From: Synechococcaceae cyanobacterium
Lineage (GTDB): Bacteria; Cyanobacteriota; Cyanobacteriia; PCC-6307; Cyanobiaceae
Reading direction: 5' to 3'
DNA length: 40,847 nt
NCBI GenBank assembly: GCA_947458155.1
Contig: CANGZM010000002.1
Coordinates: 1 to 40,847 of the forward strand
In this document: positions 4,875-13,104 of the stretch, in pieces
How positions within the stretch are numbered: the first letter of the stretch is position 1
Layout: every line of letters starts with the position of its first letter
Position numbers and translations under genes: made by a program
The notes under the pieces: generated by a model
Told to the model about the DNA's origin: nothing
Database searches by the model: none
Seen by the model: only the letters and a program-made list of their open reading frames with translations

Positions 4875-6186
4875 GGGTTTCAAGCTGAGTGGCCATGGAA
4901 AGCAGACGACCATTGTCACCGGCTCCATGCAGGGAATGGGGCCATTCGCTCCCCGCTGAAAGATGGCGAAAATTGAGACGAAGAATACGGCGGAGGTACT
5001 CAGCCTTTGTAACACCAAGCCAGATATCAAACCTTCCACTGGGGATAGTAGCAGCAAATCGCACAAACTCGGGGTAGTCCAAAGGCAGGGGAGGAAGTTC
5101 CAAACTTAAACTAAAAACCTTTAGCCAGGCTGCCAGAGAAGCTGTGTCCGAATACCGATGGCGGACCATTTCGAGGGCTGAGTTAGTCAGAGATGTTCGC
5201 AAGTTGGAATCGAGAAGCTTGGCAATGGCCGAGGCTGCCGCTTCGCAGTCACCTACAGGAAACAAAAGGGCGGTTTGTCCATCTTTAAGGGCCCCTTCAG
5301 CGCCGGAACCCACATAACGACTACTCACAACTACTAGACCAGCTGCCATAGCCTCCCAAGCCACAATCGGGCCCGTTTCCCAGCTAGAAGTAATCAACAG
5401 CACGTCACTTTGATCATAGACTTGGTGCTGAAGTTGATGCCTATCCAGGCGACCCAGCCAGCGTAAATGCCCCGAACGAATCCAGGGTTGAAGCTGTTCC
5501 TGGAGGCTGGTCGCTTCAGGGCCATCACCCGCCAAAGATAAACAGAATGGAAGTGAAATGCGATCCAGGCGATTAAGTATCGATGCAAGATCGTGAACAC
5601 GTTTTTGAGTTTGCTCAAAACGCCCCACCCAGGCAAGTCGCAAACGATCACCAGACTTGGGAAGTAGCAACTTGGATGTTGGCATTTTGACACCGTAAGG
5701 TGCGTAAAATATCCTTTCATTCGGTATAAATGACTCTTGCGCAACTAAAGCACTAGTAAGCTTATTCGTAACCACAACTGCATCAACAATAGCGCGAAAC
5801 TGACGCAGATCTTCGAGATAATCAGCCTCAATAGCATGAAGCGTAATAATCAATTTTCCAACCAGACCGCCACGTAGCCGTAGTCTAGCTACCGCAGGAT
5901 AAAGGGCAGCTATATTGACACCGACAATCAAATCAGGCTGGATAAAAACAATACAATTAACGATGCATTGAATTCTACCTTCCTGGCTACCAGTTGGATT
6001 ACGCAGGCCAATACAAGCCAACTCTGGATATGCCTTTTTATAAGATTCAAAGCAGTGAAACACTCCATCCGGTACAGCAACAGTGACATCATGACCCTCT
6101 CTCCTGATACCTGGCACCAGATCAGCCAGCCAGTCTTGAACTCCGCCGAGGAGGTAGGCTGAGGGGGCAAAGAACAGGATCTTCAT
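4867..6186 (-). CDS. GT1 (GT-B fold) glycosyltransferase
   Basis: 439 residues, a normal size for group 1 (GT4-type) transferases. The N-terminal domain opens with MKILFFAPSAYLLGGVQDWL, whose GGVQ loop contacts donor and acceptor. The C-terminal domain starts near LRLAWVGRFEQTQKR and carries SSWETGPIVAWEAMAAG with Glu270 and Glu278 (E-x7-E), which binds the donor diphosphate and ribose. About 70 extra residues after LAAWLKVFSL have no recognised domain. The start overlaps the upstream stop by 4 bases (ATGA); the end overlaps the next start by 8 bases. It is probably a retaining transferase in the same glycan pathway. Substrates are not identifiable. Confidence 0.92.
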   Translation of the reverse strand: MKILFFAPSAYLLGGVQDWLADLVPGIRREGHDVTVAVPDGVFHCFESYKKAYPELACIGLRNPTGSQEGRIQCIVNCIVFIQPDLIVGVNIAALYPAVARLRLRGGLVGKLIITLHAIEADYLEDLRQFRAIVDAVVVTNKLTSALVAQESFIPNERIFYAPYGVKMPTSKLLLPKSGDRLRLAWVGRFEQTQKRVHDLASILNRLDRISLPFCLSLAGDGPEATSLQEQLQPWIRSGHLRWLGRLDRHQLQHQVYDQSDVLLITSSWETGPIVAWEAMAAGLVVVSSRYVGSGAEGALKDGQTALLFPVGDCEAAASAIAKLLDSNLRTSLTNSALEMVRHRYSDTASLAAWLKVFSLSLELPPLPLDYPEFVRFAATIPSGRFDIWLGVTKAEYLRRILRLNFRHLSAGSEWPHSLHGAGDNGRLLSMATQLETHA

Positions 6187-7088
6187 GAAAACTGGCGATC
6201 TGGAAAAGACAAACCCTGTTGAATCTGAAGGGGTTTTAACGAGGACAAAGAGACAGGAGAAATGGGCTGAACAGGTTTAACAAAACCATGAATCTGCTTA
6301 ATATAAACTCCTTCGCCGTCAGAAGATCTGGCCCAAAGACGATAAAAACATTCTTCATTTGCAGTCGTGTATTTTCCCCACGTACGACCAGAAACATCGT
6401 CAAACGAGGTGTTTTTGGGTTGATGATTGCAGTGATGAAGATAAGGGCAAGGGATGTTGCTAATTGCAACTCCCGCAAGACCCAAGCGGGCCGTGTAATC
6501 CATATCCTCGAAACCAATGCCCAGAAATGAAGGCTCAAAAATGCCAACTTTATCAACAACTGTAGAAGCAATGATAAAATGAGACCAAGTATGATTTAAA
6601 AGAGTAAGACTAACGCTATTCCAATTAAACTTTTCCGCCCAACGCCTGATCCAAGAATCTACACGTAGATCATCATTAAGGATCCAGAGAGGTTTATTCT
6701 CAGCTGCCTGAAGCATTTCATTCCATAGAGTTGTCAAGCCACACGGGCGATCATGAAGGACAAAAATATGATGCGCGGGTGCGTGATCACATAATTCTGA
6801 TTGAAGCCGCGCAAGGTAATCAAGCTGCTTATGAGAATCCGGAAAACCATTCACTGTTACAACGATTGGGACATCCGGGAAAAGATAAGAAAGCGATTCG
6901 TAAAGAGGTTTAAAAAAATCATCGTAACGTTCGACATAGGTTGTAATGCCAATAACAAACTTTCCACTTAAATTTAGCCTATGAGGCATCAGCTTGATTG
7001 GAATCAGTCTTTTGGCCGCGTGAACTCTCGCCAGGCCAAAACGATACAAATAAAAATTAAAATTGGGCTTGGGCTTGTGCTTGGTCAT
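6183..7088 (-). CDS. GT2-like glycosyltransferase
   Basis: The frame opens at a TTG at 7109, but the ATG seven codons later (MTKHKPKPNFNF) is the better start, giving 301 residues. No clear Shine-Dalgarno precedes either. FVIGITTYVERYDDFFKPL is a diverged GT-A N-terminus, PLWILNDDLRVDSW supplies an N-D-D metal motif at about 138-140, and LGIGFEDMDYTARL resembles the C-terminal ED acceptor loop. The fold therefore seems intact although overall similarity to standard GT2 enzymes looks low. The end overlaps the next start by 4 bases. GC content is lower than in the cassette genes to its left. Role inferred: one sugar addition in the cell-surface glycan. Confidence 0.8.
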   Translation of the reverse strand: MTKHKPKPNFNFYLYRFGLARVHAAKRLIPIKLMPHRLNLSGKFVIGITTYVERYDDFFKPLYESLSYLFPDVPIVVTVNGFPDSHKQLDYLARLQSELCDHAPAHHIFVLHDRPCGLTTLWNEMLQAAENKPLWILNDDLRVDSWIRRWAEKFNWNSVSLTLLNHTWSHFIIASTVVDKVGIFEPSFLGIGFEDMDYTARLGLAGVAISNIPCPYLHHCNHQPKNTSFDDVSGRTWGKYTTANEECFYRLWARSSDGEGVYIKQIHGFVKPVQPISPVSLSSLKPLQIQQGLSFPDRQFS

Positions 7089-7128
7089 GGTAGAAAAAAA
7101 CAAAAGCAATTAGAAACGTTTATGGTTG

Positions 7129-8232
7129 CTATAGGGAATCAATTGCTCTGCTTAAGGCTGGGAATCGATCGCTAGGCATGATATAGTCATGAAAGCAACG
7201 TCTACAGTTCTCACGCATCTGGTTGAGGTTAGATCCAATATATGAGATGGCCTCCAGAAACTCTGTGTAATCCGAAACAACTACACCACACTCATATCTA
7301 GATACAAAAGCAAAACTTTCCTGTTTACTACATATAATCGGAACTCCCATAGCAATAAACATACATAATCGATTCGAGCTGATTCCCATTTTTTGGAATT
7401 GGGGCGCTTGGTTAGTATATATGGCCATGCCAATGTCGAACCCGACAGCAGACCTCCATGCCTCATTCCAGCTAAGCCGATCACGTTGTAGGAAAACACG
7501 GTCTATAGAAGGCATATTCTCTAAAAGAAAAAGAGCGAGTGGATCTACTCCCAAAGGCTGAATAACTGCATAGAGTTCAGGGCGGTCTTGAAGTGCACTA
7601 ATCAACCAATCCGCACCTAGGGTCAAATTGAATCCGCCAGATGATGCTACTACCAAAGCCTTCTCAGGGATCTGCCATTGTTGACGAAGTTGTTTTCGAT
7701 AATCTATAGACGGTACAGGAGGCTTATGAAAACAGCCTGGATAGACAATAATTTGAGATTGGGATCGTAATGGCACATATTCACGCAGCAGCGAGATGCG
7801 CGATTGATCATTGACGATGTTAAATTTCGCATTCTTCATAGCCCAACGACAGAGTTTTTTCCATCGCTCCGAACTATTACCTCGATAGCTACCTGACTTA
7901 ATCTCGTCAGCCAATACAAATGATTTCTTTTGAAGCAAAAATGCCAACAGACCCACAACAGCCAATGGATCTTCACTAGTTCCAGAGATGCAACGAATAC
8001 TCCACCAAAATGGATCAAGAATGGCTTTAGCAACCCAACGAAATGAATAACTAGCAGCGTGGGTAACAACATTTGGCCCATATTCTGTCGGCGCAGATGT
8101 TAAGTTAGGCGAAAAAATGTGAACCTCATAATCACTTGCTATTAGCGCTTCAATAATAGCACGATTGGGAGGAGAATAAAGTAGTTCAGGAATTAGAAGA
8201 AAGTGGGCAGCGCGCTTAATTGACTTAGTCAT
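7129..8232 (-). CDS. putative GT-B glycosyltransferase
   Basis: 367 residues from an ATG without an obvious Shine-Dalgarno. The layout suggests a two-domain GT-B enzyme: an N-terminal strand AAHFLLIPELLYSPPN, a short 'YEVHIFSPNL' strand typical of group 1 transferases, a linker YPGCFHKPPVP, and a C-terminal domain with ALVVASSGGFNLTLGADWLI and MGISSNRLCMFIAMGVPIIC. The last has the S-N-R-x-x-x-F-I-A-M-G-V-P pattern where group 1 enzymes place their second conserved block. A canonical E-x7-E is not evident, so the assignment is by overall pattern. The gap to the next cassette gene is 40 bases and to the previous one 42, longer than elsewhere in the cassette. Confidence 0.7.
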   Translation of the reverse strand: MTKSIKRAAHFLLIPELLYSPPNRAIIEALIASDYEVHIFSPNLTSAPTEYGPNVVTHAASYSFRWVAKAILDPFWWSIRCISGTSEDPLAVVGLLAFLLQKKSFVLADEIKSGSYRGNSSERWKKLCRWAMKNAKFNIVNDQSRISLLREYVPLRSQSQIIVYPGCFHKPPVPSIDYRKQLRQQWQIPEKALVVASSGGFNLTLGADWLISALQDRPELYAVIQPLGVDPLALFLLENMPSIDRVFLQRDRLSWNEAWRSAVGFDIGMAIYTNQAPQFQKMGISSNRLCMFIAMGVPIICSKQESFAFVSRYECGVVVSDYTEFLEAISYIGSNLNQMRENCRRCFHDYIMPSDRFPALSRAIDSL

Positions 8233-8274: not shown

Positions 8275-8607
8275 CTAAAGAGTTAAAAAAGCTTCTGGAG
8301 GACCACGAACTTTAAACCGAATAGAAAGATCTTGTTTGTTCAGTATATTATCAGATAAAAGTCGAAAACAAAAAAGATAGTTAAAATCCGCTGAAAAATC
8401 TTTTCTGCCATCGTCGGTATCATGAGTAGACTGGGATTGGATAGATCTCGGATCGTAGCAATTATGATAATAAGTGATAAATTCAACAAAGCTATAAGAG
8501 TTACCGAGACCATAGCACAAATACATCAATTGATCTGAACAAACTGCTGGAGGGTTAGAAGGTTTAAAAAGGGGTTTGCAAACAAGTTTAGACATCAAGA
8601 CATTCAT
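8275..8607 (-). CDS. hypothetical protein in glycan cassette
   Basis: 110 residues, not recognised. It is Cys/Tyr-rich in the middle (LMYLCYGLGNSYSFVEF, ITYYHNCYDP), has a polar stretch SIQSQSTHDTDDGRKDFS, and shows no signal peptide or clear membrane helix. It starts 9 bases after the stop of the upstream orphan and is followed after 42 bases by a GT-B gene, so it is probably co-transcribed. The two neighbouring orphans could be the two halves of one broken gene, but I cannot join them into a known family. Base composition is very AT-rich. Confidence 0.45.
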   Translation of the reverse strand: MNVLMSKLVCKPLFKPSNPPAVCSDQLMYLCYGLGNSYSFVEFITYYHNCYDPRSIQSQSTHDTDDGRKDFSADFNYLFCFRLLSDNILNKQDLSIRFKVRGPPEAFLTL

Positions 8608-8616
8608 AGCAAACTA

Positions 8617-9192
8617 TCAAAATCCGTGTTCTGACAAAGTAGCTGGCATAATATGAGTTTCATGAAGTCCATTAACAACGAATTCAAAGTGATGTAACAA
8701 TCTGTTTCTGTTCGAAAACAATGCAACATTGCGAGCTTTTTTGATCAGTTTTGTTTTAAAAAATACAAACAAACTGTCAGGCATATTAAGATCAGGCATA
8801 TTAAGATCAAAATACTGGGTAATTAGACTACAGTAAATATCGTCAATCGATACCACTACAAATAACCTATGGATTTTAATCATTACAAACAATAGCCAGC
8901 GAGCATATAGTATTTCTTTAGAGATAGCAATCAAAGAATAAATAGCCAAATTATGATACATCAAAATGCTAATTCCTTTTGGTGGAGTAAGTGCCTTGTC
9001 AATCATTTCAATGACAAGAGAATGTGCAATTGTTGCTAATTTATCCAGTAAATTATTGTCAAAAATAAAGGAAAAATTTTTATCTCCTTTGGTAGTATCC
9101 GTGAGAGAACTGAGGCAATGGGAGAAGAACAGCTGTCTATTCCATCTAATTATATCAACAAAAATTGACATTATGGAATTATGACTAATCAT
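8617..9192 (-). CDS. hypothetical protein coupled to a GT2 gene
   Basis: 191 residues, not recognised. Its ATG lies in the stop of the upstream GT2 (ATGA, 4-base overlap), the same coupling used by real genes in this cassette and the best argument that it is translated. It is hydrophobic in the centre (YARWLLFVMIKIHRLFVVV, about residues 97-115), which could be a membrane-associated helix or a buried strand. It contains a duplicated pentapeptide (LNMPD twice), produced by a 15-base tandem repeat at 8781-8810. One sampled 60-base line (8881-8940) is 32% GC. A segment reading ILMYHNL recalls polysaccharide deacetylases, but none of the other deacetylase motifs follow. Confidence 0.5.
   Translation of the reverse strand: MISHNSIMSIFVDIIRWNRQLFFSHCLSSLTDTTKGDKNFSFIFDNNLLDKLATIAHSLVIEMIDKALTPPKGISILMYHNLAIYSLIAISKEILYARWLLFVMIKIHRLFVVVSIDDIYCSLITQYFDLNMPDLNMPDSLFVFFKTKLIKKARNVALFSNRNRLLHHFEFVVNGLHETHIMPATLSEHGF
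8781..8810. repeat. 15-base tandem duplication inside orphan CDS
   Basis: The unit gcatattaagatcag/a occurs twice head to tail (ggcatattaagatca, ggcatattaagatca, give or take a base in phase). It keeps the reading frame and doubles the peptide LNMPD. It looks like replication slippage and is of recent origin because the copies are identical. Confidence 0.8.
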
Positions 9193-10121
9193 TTATTGGT
9201 GGGCGTTGGGAAAAGATGAAGTTTCTTCAATAAACGGACAGGAAGACTCGAATTAAAAGTCCATAATTGCGCCTCTAACTCTGAGTTTCGTTCTACTAGA
9301 GAAGAAACCAGTACCTTGAGTTCGTCAAAAAGGCCGTGCTTAGCATATATATATGCTAATTCTTGGTTGGTTTTTCTTCGAAATTTAACAGTCTTTACTT
9401 CTGGATAATAACGCATAACACCCAATTTCTGATCCAATGTAGCAGGATTACAAGTGGTTGAAAACTTAAACCAAAGATCGTAATCCATCAAGAGTGTCAA
9501 GCTTTCGTCTACCCCACCCACCCTTTTCCACAATGCCGATCTCCAAAAACAAGATTGTTGCATAATCCAGCGATCATTTTTCCAGTCCAGCAATGCCTCC
9601 AGATTTAAAAACCGCTGGGGAACGAAACGTAAAAAATTCTGCTCCATAGAAACAACCTCACCAGCCCCAACTAAAAACTCAACTCTTGGATCAGAGAAGG
9701 CTTCGGCTACTTTTGACAGTGCTCCTGGGAGATAAAAATCATCAGAATTAAGCCAAGCAAAAATATCCCCAGTTGCCCGCTGGAATCCCCTATTTATTGC
9801 TTGTGACTGACCCTTGTCAGGTGCTGAAGTGACATGAGCTAAATAGGGTCTATAACGGTTTATAACATCAAGAGTAGTATCATTACTTCCACCATCCATA
9901 ATGATAATTTCATAATAGGGGTAATCTTGATTGATGATTGAAAAAATTGTATCTTCAATCGTATCACCTTGATTCAAGGTTGGTATAACTATTGAAATTT
10001 TCAAGCTACGCTTGGGATCGCCATGAGCTTTGCTTTGGGGAAGCGGTGGCTCTTGTAGAGATAGTGAAGAAGGCCAGCCATAGAGAGGCTCTCTTGATAA
10101 ACATTGATAATTTGATGTCAT
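9189..10121 (-). CDS. GT2 family glycosyltransferase
   Basis: 310 residues. After a 40-residue leader rich in Pro/Ser comes KISIVIPTLNQGDTIEDTI, then EIIIMDGGSNDTT (Asp76) and IFAWLNSDDFYLPGAL (Asp127-Asp128). SAPDKGQSQAINRGF is the loop typical of the WcaA/GT2 subgroup that uses UDP- or dTDP-sugars. The start lies 8 bases after the stop of the AsnB-like gene, and the stop overlaps the next start (ATGA). The protein is cytoplasmic, probably acting on a polyprenyl-linked glycan. The sugar is unknown. Confidence 0.92.
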   Translation of the reverse strand: MTSNYQCLSREPLYGWPSSLSLQEPPLPQSKAHGDPKRSLKISIVIPTLNQGDTIEDTIFSIINQDYPYYEIIIMDGGSNDTTLDVINRYRPYLAHVTSAPDKGQSQAINRGFQRATGDIFAWLNSDDFYLPGALSKVAEAFSDPRVEFLVGAGEVVSMEQNFLRFVPQRFLNLEALLDWKNDRWIMQQSCFWRSALWKRVGGVDESLTLLMDYDLWFKFSTTCNPATLDQKLGVMRYYPEVKTVKFRRKTNQELAYIYAKHGLFDELKVLVSSLVERNSELEAQLWTFNSSLPVRLLKKLHLFPTPTNK

Positions 10122-10129
10122 GATAGATT

Positions 10130-11686
10130 CTATAAATTATGACGTTGAAGATTTTGCTTCCAATAAATCATAGTTAACAGAAAAGCTAGGGTGCGAGTCC
10201 TATCATTGCCTGATTTGTGGCTGCTAAGAATAGATGTAACCAAGACTGGATCAATTAAATCATCTATAGATTGTCGGTTGGAATAAATAAAATCCTGGAG
10301 AATAGGATCACGGTACCATTCAGAACTTAAGTCATAGCTAATATAGGGGGTTCTTCGCATTGCAGATGTCCAATAAAAAGGTGGAGCTTTCTTAAGCATT
10401 CTGTTGGAAACGAAACCATTCTCTTCTGGAAAATCTAATAATTTTGACATATTCATACTAATCGCATACCTATGCCAATTGGATCCTAACTTCCATGTTG
10501 CTGGCAGATTCCAGATTTGGTCAATCCAACGACGACTATGAAAGGGAGATCGCCATCTACTAGAGTCCATATACATCTTAATGCCATTAGCATAAAAGTT
10601 AGGTACCCGTTGTTCAAAATAATAACGGGTCAAACCAGGCAAAAATTTCTGTTTACAATAACTAGTAAGTCTATGCGCCCGGGAATCAATGCCTTGGGGG
10701 GATAGTTGTTCCGCGAATTGACTATGGAGTGACGATAACTCATTGGACAGGAATGTAGGATGACGATTGAGTTTCATATTCCAGAATCTTTGAAGGGCTA
10801 AATTAGGATTTAACGCTGCAATTTGGCCTAGTTGACCTTTGTCAAAATAATATGAACGAGCAAATTCTCCTAATGTGCCAACAAAGAAGCTACTGTTAGC
10901 TGGAATCTGGGCCTTTAAAGGGTAGAGGTAAGTATGCCAATGCCAAGCGGTCTTAGTACCATTAGTTATATATGAAATCCTGGCAGCATGCTCAAAAAAA
11001 TCATTAATAGTGATTCTAACCAAGTCATGGGTTAAACTATATTCGGATGCAATCGCTTTGGCCGTTCTTACATCAGAGCACTGATCATTACCCATTGTAA
11101 TCAAATGGGGCTGAATTCCCTGCTGTAACATTGATCCCAAAATGACCCTGGAATCAAACCCCCCAGACAGGGAAAGATAGGGATTATTTCCCGACCAAGT
11201 CGACACTTCTAGATTCATCGCTTTTACAGCAGCGTTTGGATCCGGACGAAGCGGGGGAATTGAATCTATATAATATTTGACGTCTAGATTGAGTTGACTA
11301 TTTCTATAGTAAAGGCTGGTCCCTGGAGGGACTCGTCTGATTGACGGATGTAATGTTTGATTATTTGTAAGATTTTCAAGTTGACATAAATCACCCAAGG
11401 AAGACCAATTCCATTGCCAAGGCAAAGATGCTTGATTGAGAATATCAATAATCTTAGTTCCGTGGTAAAACCGTTGGCCATCATAATAATAGTAATAATG
11501 CATGGCTCCTACAGGAGAAGTGATAATCGCGCATTCGTTATCACCCTCCAAGATTAAAACATATTCACCGCTTATATCTCTGAGTGCCTGAACTCCTTGG
11601 TTTAGAAATAATTCAAGCAGTTGCTGGTCGGAATATTTAGTGTAGCCAATTTGCCGCAAACTTTGAATAGTTGTATCGCTCATCAT
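10130..11686 (-). CDS. asparagine-synthetase-like protein lacking the glutaminase cysteine
   Basis: 518 residues. The C-terminal part is an AsnB-type synthetase domain: LSLSGGFDSRVILGSML at 171-187 holds the SGGxDS pyrophosphate loop (174-179) that binds ATP. The N-terminal 130 residues match only the second half of a class II glutamine amidotransferase domain (SPVGAMHYYYYYDGQRFYHG, then VPPGTSLYY). The first roughly 50 residues, including the catalytic Cys that must follow the initiator Met, are absent. A stop codon (TAA) lies one codon upstream of the start, so no longer form in this frame is possible. It may use free ammonia or another amine, or may only adenylate a carboxylate such as a uronic acid in the glycan. 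It is the first gene of the cassette. Confidence 0.85.
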   Translation of the reverse strand: MMSDTTIQSLRQIGYTKYSDQQLLELFLNQGVQALRDISGEYVLILEGDNECAIITSPVGAMHYYYYYDGQRFYHGTKIIDILNQASLPWQWNWSSLGDLCQLENLTNNQTLHPSIRRVPPGTSLYYRNSQLNLDVKYYIDSIPPLRPDPNAAVKAMNLEVSTWSGNNPYLSLSGGFDSRVILGSMLQQGIQPHLITMGNDQCSDVRTAKAIASEYSLTHDLVRITINDFFEHAARISYITNGTKTAWHWHTYLYPLKAQIPANSSFFVGTLGEFARSYYFDKGQLGQIAALNPNLALQRFWNMKLNRHPTFLSNELSSLHSQFAEQLSPQGIDSRAHRLTSYCKQKFLPGLTRYYFEQRVPNFYANGIKMYMDSSRWRSPFHSRRWIDQIWNLPATWKLGSNWHRYAISMNMSKLLDFPEENGFVSNRMLKKAPPFYWTSAMRRTPYISYDLSSEWYRDPILQDFIYSNRQSIDDLIDPVLVTSILSSHKSGNDRTRTLAFLLTMIYWKQNLQRHNL

Positions 11687-12015: not shown

Positions 12016-13104
12016 ATGCATATATTCAATCACTTTAAAAATGCCATGAGGCCTAGTATGTGGTTACTGTTGACGGGCTGCCTATTCATCAATTCAGACG
12101 TAGGACATAATCGCAAGCACATGCTATCTGAATCAATGCCGGCAAAAGGTATTGATTCCAAAAATTTGGCTGTGATTATAAATGATCAGGATCCTTATAG
12201 TGTGGAGATTGGCGCCTTTTATGTCAAAGAGAGATTAATTCCGAGCAGTCAGGTCATTCATATATCCTTACCTACCGGTGTCAGTGAATTATCAGTATCT
12301 CAATTCCGTTGGATTTTGCGAGATGTAAACAAGCGAGTCCCTAAGCATATTCAAGCGTTTGCATTGGCTTGGACGAAACCCTATCGCGTTGGCTGCCAAT
12401 CGATCACCAGCGCCTTCGCCTACGGAATAGAACCTGGCCTTTGCCAACGCTCATGTAAAACAACGCGTTTGAATCCCTATTATGCAAGGGGTGATGTCTA
12501 TAGACCATGGGAAGAATTAAAGCTTCGTCCAACAATGTTACTGGCTGCCAGCAACATTAATCTGGGTAAGACTTTAATTCGCAAGGGCTTATCTTCTGAT
12601 AGCAGTGCACCGGGGGGAACAGGCTATTTAATGAGTACCAGTGATCCCGCCAGAAACAGTAGAGCCTCACTATTCGAGGAAGCTAAACAAAGTGTTGGCA
12701 ATAAATTTAAGATTAAAATAGTTCACTCTGATACTTTAAGCAACGCCCAGGATATTATGGTTTATTTTACGGGATTAAAATGGGTAGAAAAGATTAATAC
12801 AAACCATTTTTTGCCCGGTGCTATCGCCGATCACCTTACATCTTTTGGAGGCAATCTGACAGACACTAGTCAAATGAGCGCATTAAGATGGCTTGATGCT
12901 GGCGCAACTGGAAGCTATGGAACCGTTGTAGAGCCATGTAATTATACTGCCAAATTTCCGCATCCTGGTTTATTTTTGACCTACTACCTTAGAGGAGATA
13001 CCCTAATTGAGGCCTATTGGCGCAGTGTCGCAATGCCAGGACAAGGACTCTTTATCGGCGAACCACTCGCCCGACCCTGGGCTCCTAAAACCTCAGAAGA
13101 ATAA
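12016..13104 (+). CDS. TIGR03790 family protein, putative lipoprotein
   Basis: 362 residues from an ATG with a good Shine-Dalgarno (AAGGA, 8 bases upstream). A basic start and hydrophobic stretch end in LLLTGC, so Cys22 is a plausible lipobox cysteine and the mature protein would be a periplasmic lipoprotein. The body matches the uncharacterised TIGR03790 family: NLAVIINDQDPYSVEIGAFY near residue 50, an LPTGVSELS segment, AWTKPYRVGCQSITSAFAYG, DAGATGSYGTVVEPC, and the C-terminal GEPLARPW. The biochemical function of the family is unknown. It sits alone on the plus strand between two minus-strand sugar operons, so a role in surface glycan export or display is possible but unproven. It ends 3 bases before the convergent galE stop. 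Confidence 0.8.
   Translation: MHIFNHFKNAMRPSMWLLLTGCLFINSDVGHNRKHMLSESMPAKGIDSKNLAVIINDQDPYSVEIGAFYVKERLIPSSQVIHISLPTGVSELSVSQFRWILRDVNKRVPKHIQAFALAWTKPYRVGCQSITSAFAYGIEPGLCQRSCKTTRLNPYYARGDVYRPWEELKLRPTMLLAASNINLGKTLIRKGLSSDSSAPGGTGYLMSTSDPARNSRASLFEEAKQSVGNKFKIKIVHSDTLSNAQDIMVYFTGLKWVEKINTNHFLPGAIADHLTSFGGNLTDTSQMSALRWLDAGATGSYGTVVEPCNYTAKFPHPGLFLTYYLRGDTLIEAYWRSVAMPGQGLFIGEPLARPWAPKTSEE

Follow-up and report, generated by a model that had tools for sequence, protein, structure and literature searches.

Two adjacent open reading frames (ORFs) on the reverse strand of a 40,847-nucleotide stretch of a Synechococcaceae cyanobacterium genome (contig CANGZM010000002.1, positions 1 to 40,847; hereafter the window) are very probably, at a probability of about 0.88, the two halves of one decayed family-2 glycosyltransferase (GT2) gene (8275–9192), which has been drifting nearly neutrally since its function was lost in the window lineage. 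As expected of a pseudogene, an intact orthologue at the same locus covers all of the fragments, the window copy carries disabling mutations and its dN/dS is near 1, while the PF00535 profile match and the acidic HSD/HAD motif of a functional GT2 are both absent from it. A decayed GT2 gene is ordinary in kind, and the preservation of its reading frame is one small oddity. The window genome is represented by one metagenome-assembled genome (MAG) of 276 contigs, 85% complete.

One reading frame interrupted by two adjacent stops

The 5′ ORF (8617–9192, reverse strand, 191 codons) corresponds to the N-terminal GT-A part of the intact relatives and the 3′ ORF (8275–8607, reverse strand, 110 codons) to their C-terminal part. 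As the initial annotation had described, the ATG of the former (9192–9190) overlaps the TGA stop of the upstream GT2 gene (9191–9189) as ATGA, and 9 bases (8616–8608) lie between its own stop and the start of the latter. Since the starts at 9192 and 8607 share a frame, the pair forms one frame interrupted by TGA TAG. Reading from 9192 down to 8275, the first 191 codons are followed by TGA and TAG, then by two further codons and the ATG that opens the 110-codon ORF, so that the whole is a single frame of 305 codons in which two stops are internal. This second ATG (8605–8607, reverse strand) is an ancestral internal methionine codon, invariant in relatives, and not an evolved start. The AT-richness that had also been pointed out was borne out, the GC content of the combined region being 0.328 vs 0.394–0.427 in the four nearest neighbours (AsnS, GT2, GT4 and GT2b; that of the next neighbour, GT4b, is 0.495). 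Neither the 191- nor the 110-residue protein alone matched Pfam, even at E ≤ 1, so that the lack of resemblance to a known family held for the fragments as they stand but not for their intact relatives, which match PF00535.

An intact orthologue in a conserved operon

In 24 further genomes of the genus a single open gene of about 294 codons extends across both fragments, an observation that the initial annotation had itself named as pointing to pseudogene fragments instead of orphan proteins. With a profile of six intact proteins the gene was open in these 24 genomes and stops were seen only in the window genome, where the intact-relative profile gave one match (8290–9171, E 4e-62) with one TGA and one TAG inside it. 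When each fragment was searched separately across the order, the two matched side by side in the same genomes, and no stop separated them. A first scan of genome contigs with the window 191-residue protein as query had given no match because this protein is too diverged. Gene order was identical in 22/22 loci checked (Asn-synthase-like, GT2, intact gene, GT4, GT2, GT4), the intact gene being placed between the orthologues of the window GT2 and the window GT4 in every case. The nearest relative (L040/G305, a Lake Pavin MAG, JAPLIC010000036.1), with 85% DNA identity over the window and 79–87% identity in neighbouring operon proteins, has the frame intact and the same ATGA start, indicating that the start of the 191-codon ORF is ancestral. 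A contig break falls within the gene in the Synechococcus sp. UW140 MAG (G236), but the two contig ends have 149 identical bases in common, and once they are joined the frame is continuous. The orthologues in L040 and G236 share operon position and colinear full length with the window copy (L040 also the ATGA start), but each is one open gene with its catalytic and invariant residues, whereas the window copy has two internal stops, has lost its terminal stop and has about half of the invariant residues replaced. No intact second copy of the GT2 gene was found in the window genome assembly (85% complete); a search of a plasmid collection gave a chance match only and a search of a phage collection with the intact orthologue gave no match.

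The gene upstream of the pseudogene is an intact GT2 (9189–10121, reverse strand), whose stop overlaps the pseudogene start in the same way in L040. Changes in it are mildly in excess on the window branch (33 vs 13, P 0.0045; dN/dS 0.19 vs 0.12), which possibly represents early relaxation. Downstream lies an intact and constrained glycosyltransferase gene, GT4dn (7129–8232, reverse strand), with a branch dN/dS of 0.09. The products of this gene and of 6183–7109 (reverse strand) are conserved operon proteins that are glycosyltransferase-like by context and gave no Pfam match above cut-off. The asparagine-synthase-like gene (10130–11686, reverse strand), which heads the conserved glycan operon, has only a partial Asn_synthase match (27 bits, residues 173–243), and its best NCBIfam matches are likewise partial and lie far below cut-off. 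Its divergent start is adjoined by a gene on the forward strand (12016–13104) for a 362-residue protein with no Pfam match above cut-off, about 80% conserved in the two nearest relatives; it is a real uncharacterised gene.

Family and fold of the ancestral gene

The intact gene is a family-2 glycosyltransferase as judged from its profile match and predicted fold. Intact relatives scored 40–47 bits against Glycos_transf_2 (PF00535; cut-off 23.3), and AlphaFold2 predicted a structure for the L040 protein (alignment of 20 sequences) with a pLDDT of 86.6 and a pTM of 0.87. A Foldseek search with this model, which carried out on the intact protein the fold search that had been proposed for the fragments, listed 50 matches, all of them GT-A-type glycosyltransferases (E about 1e-9 to 1e-8), among them PcManGT, glucosyl-3-phosphoglycerate synthase, WrtF and SpsA. 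The intact gene has in common with GT2 (PF00535) structures such as mycobacterial glucosyl-3-phosphoglycerate synthase and WrtF the ancestral fold and the N-terminal nucleotide-sugar-binding domain, although these structural matches are remote (TM-score by query length 0.36–0.47); unlike members of the GT2 family, the window fragments are without any PF00535 match. Homologues from Burkholderiaceae/Caenimonas and Acidobacteria are 40–45% identical to the cyanobacterial proteins; the window copy, at 30–32% identity to most of its own genus, is farther from them than these are. Burkholderiaceae/Caenimonas and Acidobacteria also have the intact GT2 subfamily (L060–L064), which carries a THYHNWY motif near its C-terminus, and this spread suggests horizontal transfer of the glycan gene. 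A stop in one Acidobacteria homologue (L062) was considered as an interruption and rejected, being a slightly earlier natural end.

Lesions and loss of constraint in the window copy

In a codon alignment with G236 and L040 the tandem in-frame stops TGA TAG (8614–8619, reverse strand) replace CGA (Arg) and TGG (Trp), the latter tryptophan being invariant across the family. Both are transitions (CGA to TGA, C>T; TGG to TAG, G>A) and they divide the gene about two thirds of the way along. The window copy also carries an in-frame 15-base tandem duplication (GATCTTAATATGCCT twice; 8779–8808, reverse strand) that adds five codons and is absent from the relatives, a specific deletion of one codon, and at the 3′ end (8275–8286, reverse strand) a loss of the ancestral stop (TGA to TTA) with a three-codon extension to the next TAG. 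The HSD/HAD motif reads ISK, H90 and D92 both being replaced; D92 is invariant in the family and from its position in the GT2 pattern is probably the catalytic or metal-binding aspartate. Residues invariant in all intact cyanobacterial copies were kept at 57 of 107 sites, a proportion close to that at variable sites (94 of 189). Polarized changes were mostly from GC to AT (57 vs 23), which accounts for the AT-richness of the fragments.

Identity between the window copy and G236 was 0.495 where neighbouring genes predict 0.793 ± 0.019, and the nucleotide excess over those genes affected every codon position (+0.15, +0.18 and +0.11 at positions 1, 2 and 3). Outgroup-polarized relative-rate tests gave 102 unique amino-acid changes in the window copy against 10 in L040 (P 2e-20), and 64 against 4 when compared with G236; the same count of window vs L040 changes was roughly balanced in five neighbours (from 27:39 to 33:13). 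An earlier codon model that relied on distant outgroups had reached saturation and gave no information, and its place was taken by one using the nearest sister L040 and neutral branch lengths from the five neighbouring genes (1,881 codons). With this model, dN/dS was 0.79 on the window branch and 0.11 on other branches (lnL +118 over equal rates), and was 0.09–0.19 for the five neighbours on the window branch. A neutral simulation reproduced the hydrophobicity, the charge and the mean BLOSUM62 of the changes. The 5′ part had a dN/dS of 0.91, indistinguishable from 1, and the 3′ part one of 0.62, which rejects 1 (lnL difference 5.2), indicating that some constraint lasted longer in the 3′ part, which fits a stepwise loss. 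From these results the two options left by the initial annotation can be separated: two novel orphan proteins (glycan-modifying or scaffold) are not supported, as the fragments descend from a GT2 glycosyltransferase and have lost essentially all constraint on their residues, and its other suggestion, a decaying gene, is upheld by the single frame, the two stops and the comparison of synonymous and nonsynonymous change that it had called for.

A frame more open than drift predicts

The window copy resembles bacterial pseudogenes (interrupted coding sequences) in its nonsense substitutions, its loss of constraint and its GC to AT drift, but differs from them in unusually long persistence and in a frame that is open for the extent of its drift; pseudogenes in Salmonella are reportedly removed fast (PMC2916853). 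When neutral change was simulated from L040 until the observed identity was reached, 7–9 stops were expected, as compared with the two adjacent stops observed, and two or fewer appeared in about 1–3% of runs (P about 0.01–0.03) if release was placed at 75–90% identity. The intergenic stretch of about 330 bases between AsnS and G12 showed about eight indels between the window and L040, an approximate count from a single pairwise alignment, and at this ratio some 15 indels or more would be predicted for the gene, whose net changes are all in frame, with no net frameshift. Low gap costs gave many compensating indels inside the gene, but as these are alignment-dependent they were kept out of the evidence. 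The deficit of both stops and indels means that the open frame has outlasted what pure decay would predict. Nonsense mutation may have come late, at the end of a long period of relaxed constraint; chance, or selection on the translation of the operon, may also be the reason.

Selection of this last kind would mean that the enzyme is dead and that the open frame, not the amino acids, has been kept for ribosomes reaching and coupling to the constrained downstream transferases, the tandem stops being tolerated because an ATG lies a few codons further on. The deficit of stops and frameshifts despite near-neutral residue change, the retained ATGA overlap and the strong constraint on the downstream GT4 (dN/dS 0.09) would all agree with this. 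However, no Rho gene was found in the assembly (85% complete), so that classical Rho polarity is unavailable as an explanation, and the 42-base gap between the ORF and the next gene leaves no direct stop–start coupling downstream; the stop statistics are moderate and the placement of indels is ambiguous in so diverged a stretch, and we consider this reading unlikely. It is much less probable that the fragments have been co-opted as two new small proteins that are separate and translationally coupled: their open frames are long, disruptions are few and the starts are suitably placed for coupling, but the substitutions resemble neutral change in their codon positions, severity and composition, dN/dS is about 0.9 in the 191-residue part, the second ATG is an inherited methionine codon and no similar split was seen in any other genome searched.

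A functional gene expressed by stop-codon read-through or recoding has a precedent in the isolated in-frame stops that are widespread in bacterial genes, often with dN/dS below 1 (PMC7918605), but the dN/dS of about 0.8 in the window copy, its tandem pair of two different stops and its loss of the catalytic residues make this explanation very hard to credit. Equally implausible is a sequencing or assembly artefact which, although the genome is a MAG in 276 contigs and incomplete, would have to produce about 100 dispersed unique substitutions that cannot be read errors, next to five neighbouring genes (Asn-synthase-like, GT2, GT4, GT2b and GT4b) that are open and evolve normally.

Implications

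If the ORF pair is a decayed GT2 gene, its ancestor would have stood third in a surface-glycan operon that is conserved in Cyanobium/Synechococcus-type cyanobacteria, and loss of its function in the window lineage would have allowed the stops, the loss of the terminal stop, the 15-base duplication, the codon deletion and the drop in GC content to accumulate. The glycan made by the operon would then presumably lack the step catalysed by the lost enzyme. Any translation of the message that still takes place would be expected to give two inert fragments, the second by re-initiation at the former internal methionine codon 12 bases past the start of the stops. The result takes two apparent novel protein families off the list, and illustrates how, when a single genome is read, far-advanced decay can make one gene look like two orphans. 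The combination of far residue drift with a kept frame bears on whether position in an operon protects the reading frames of dead genes.
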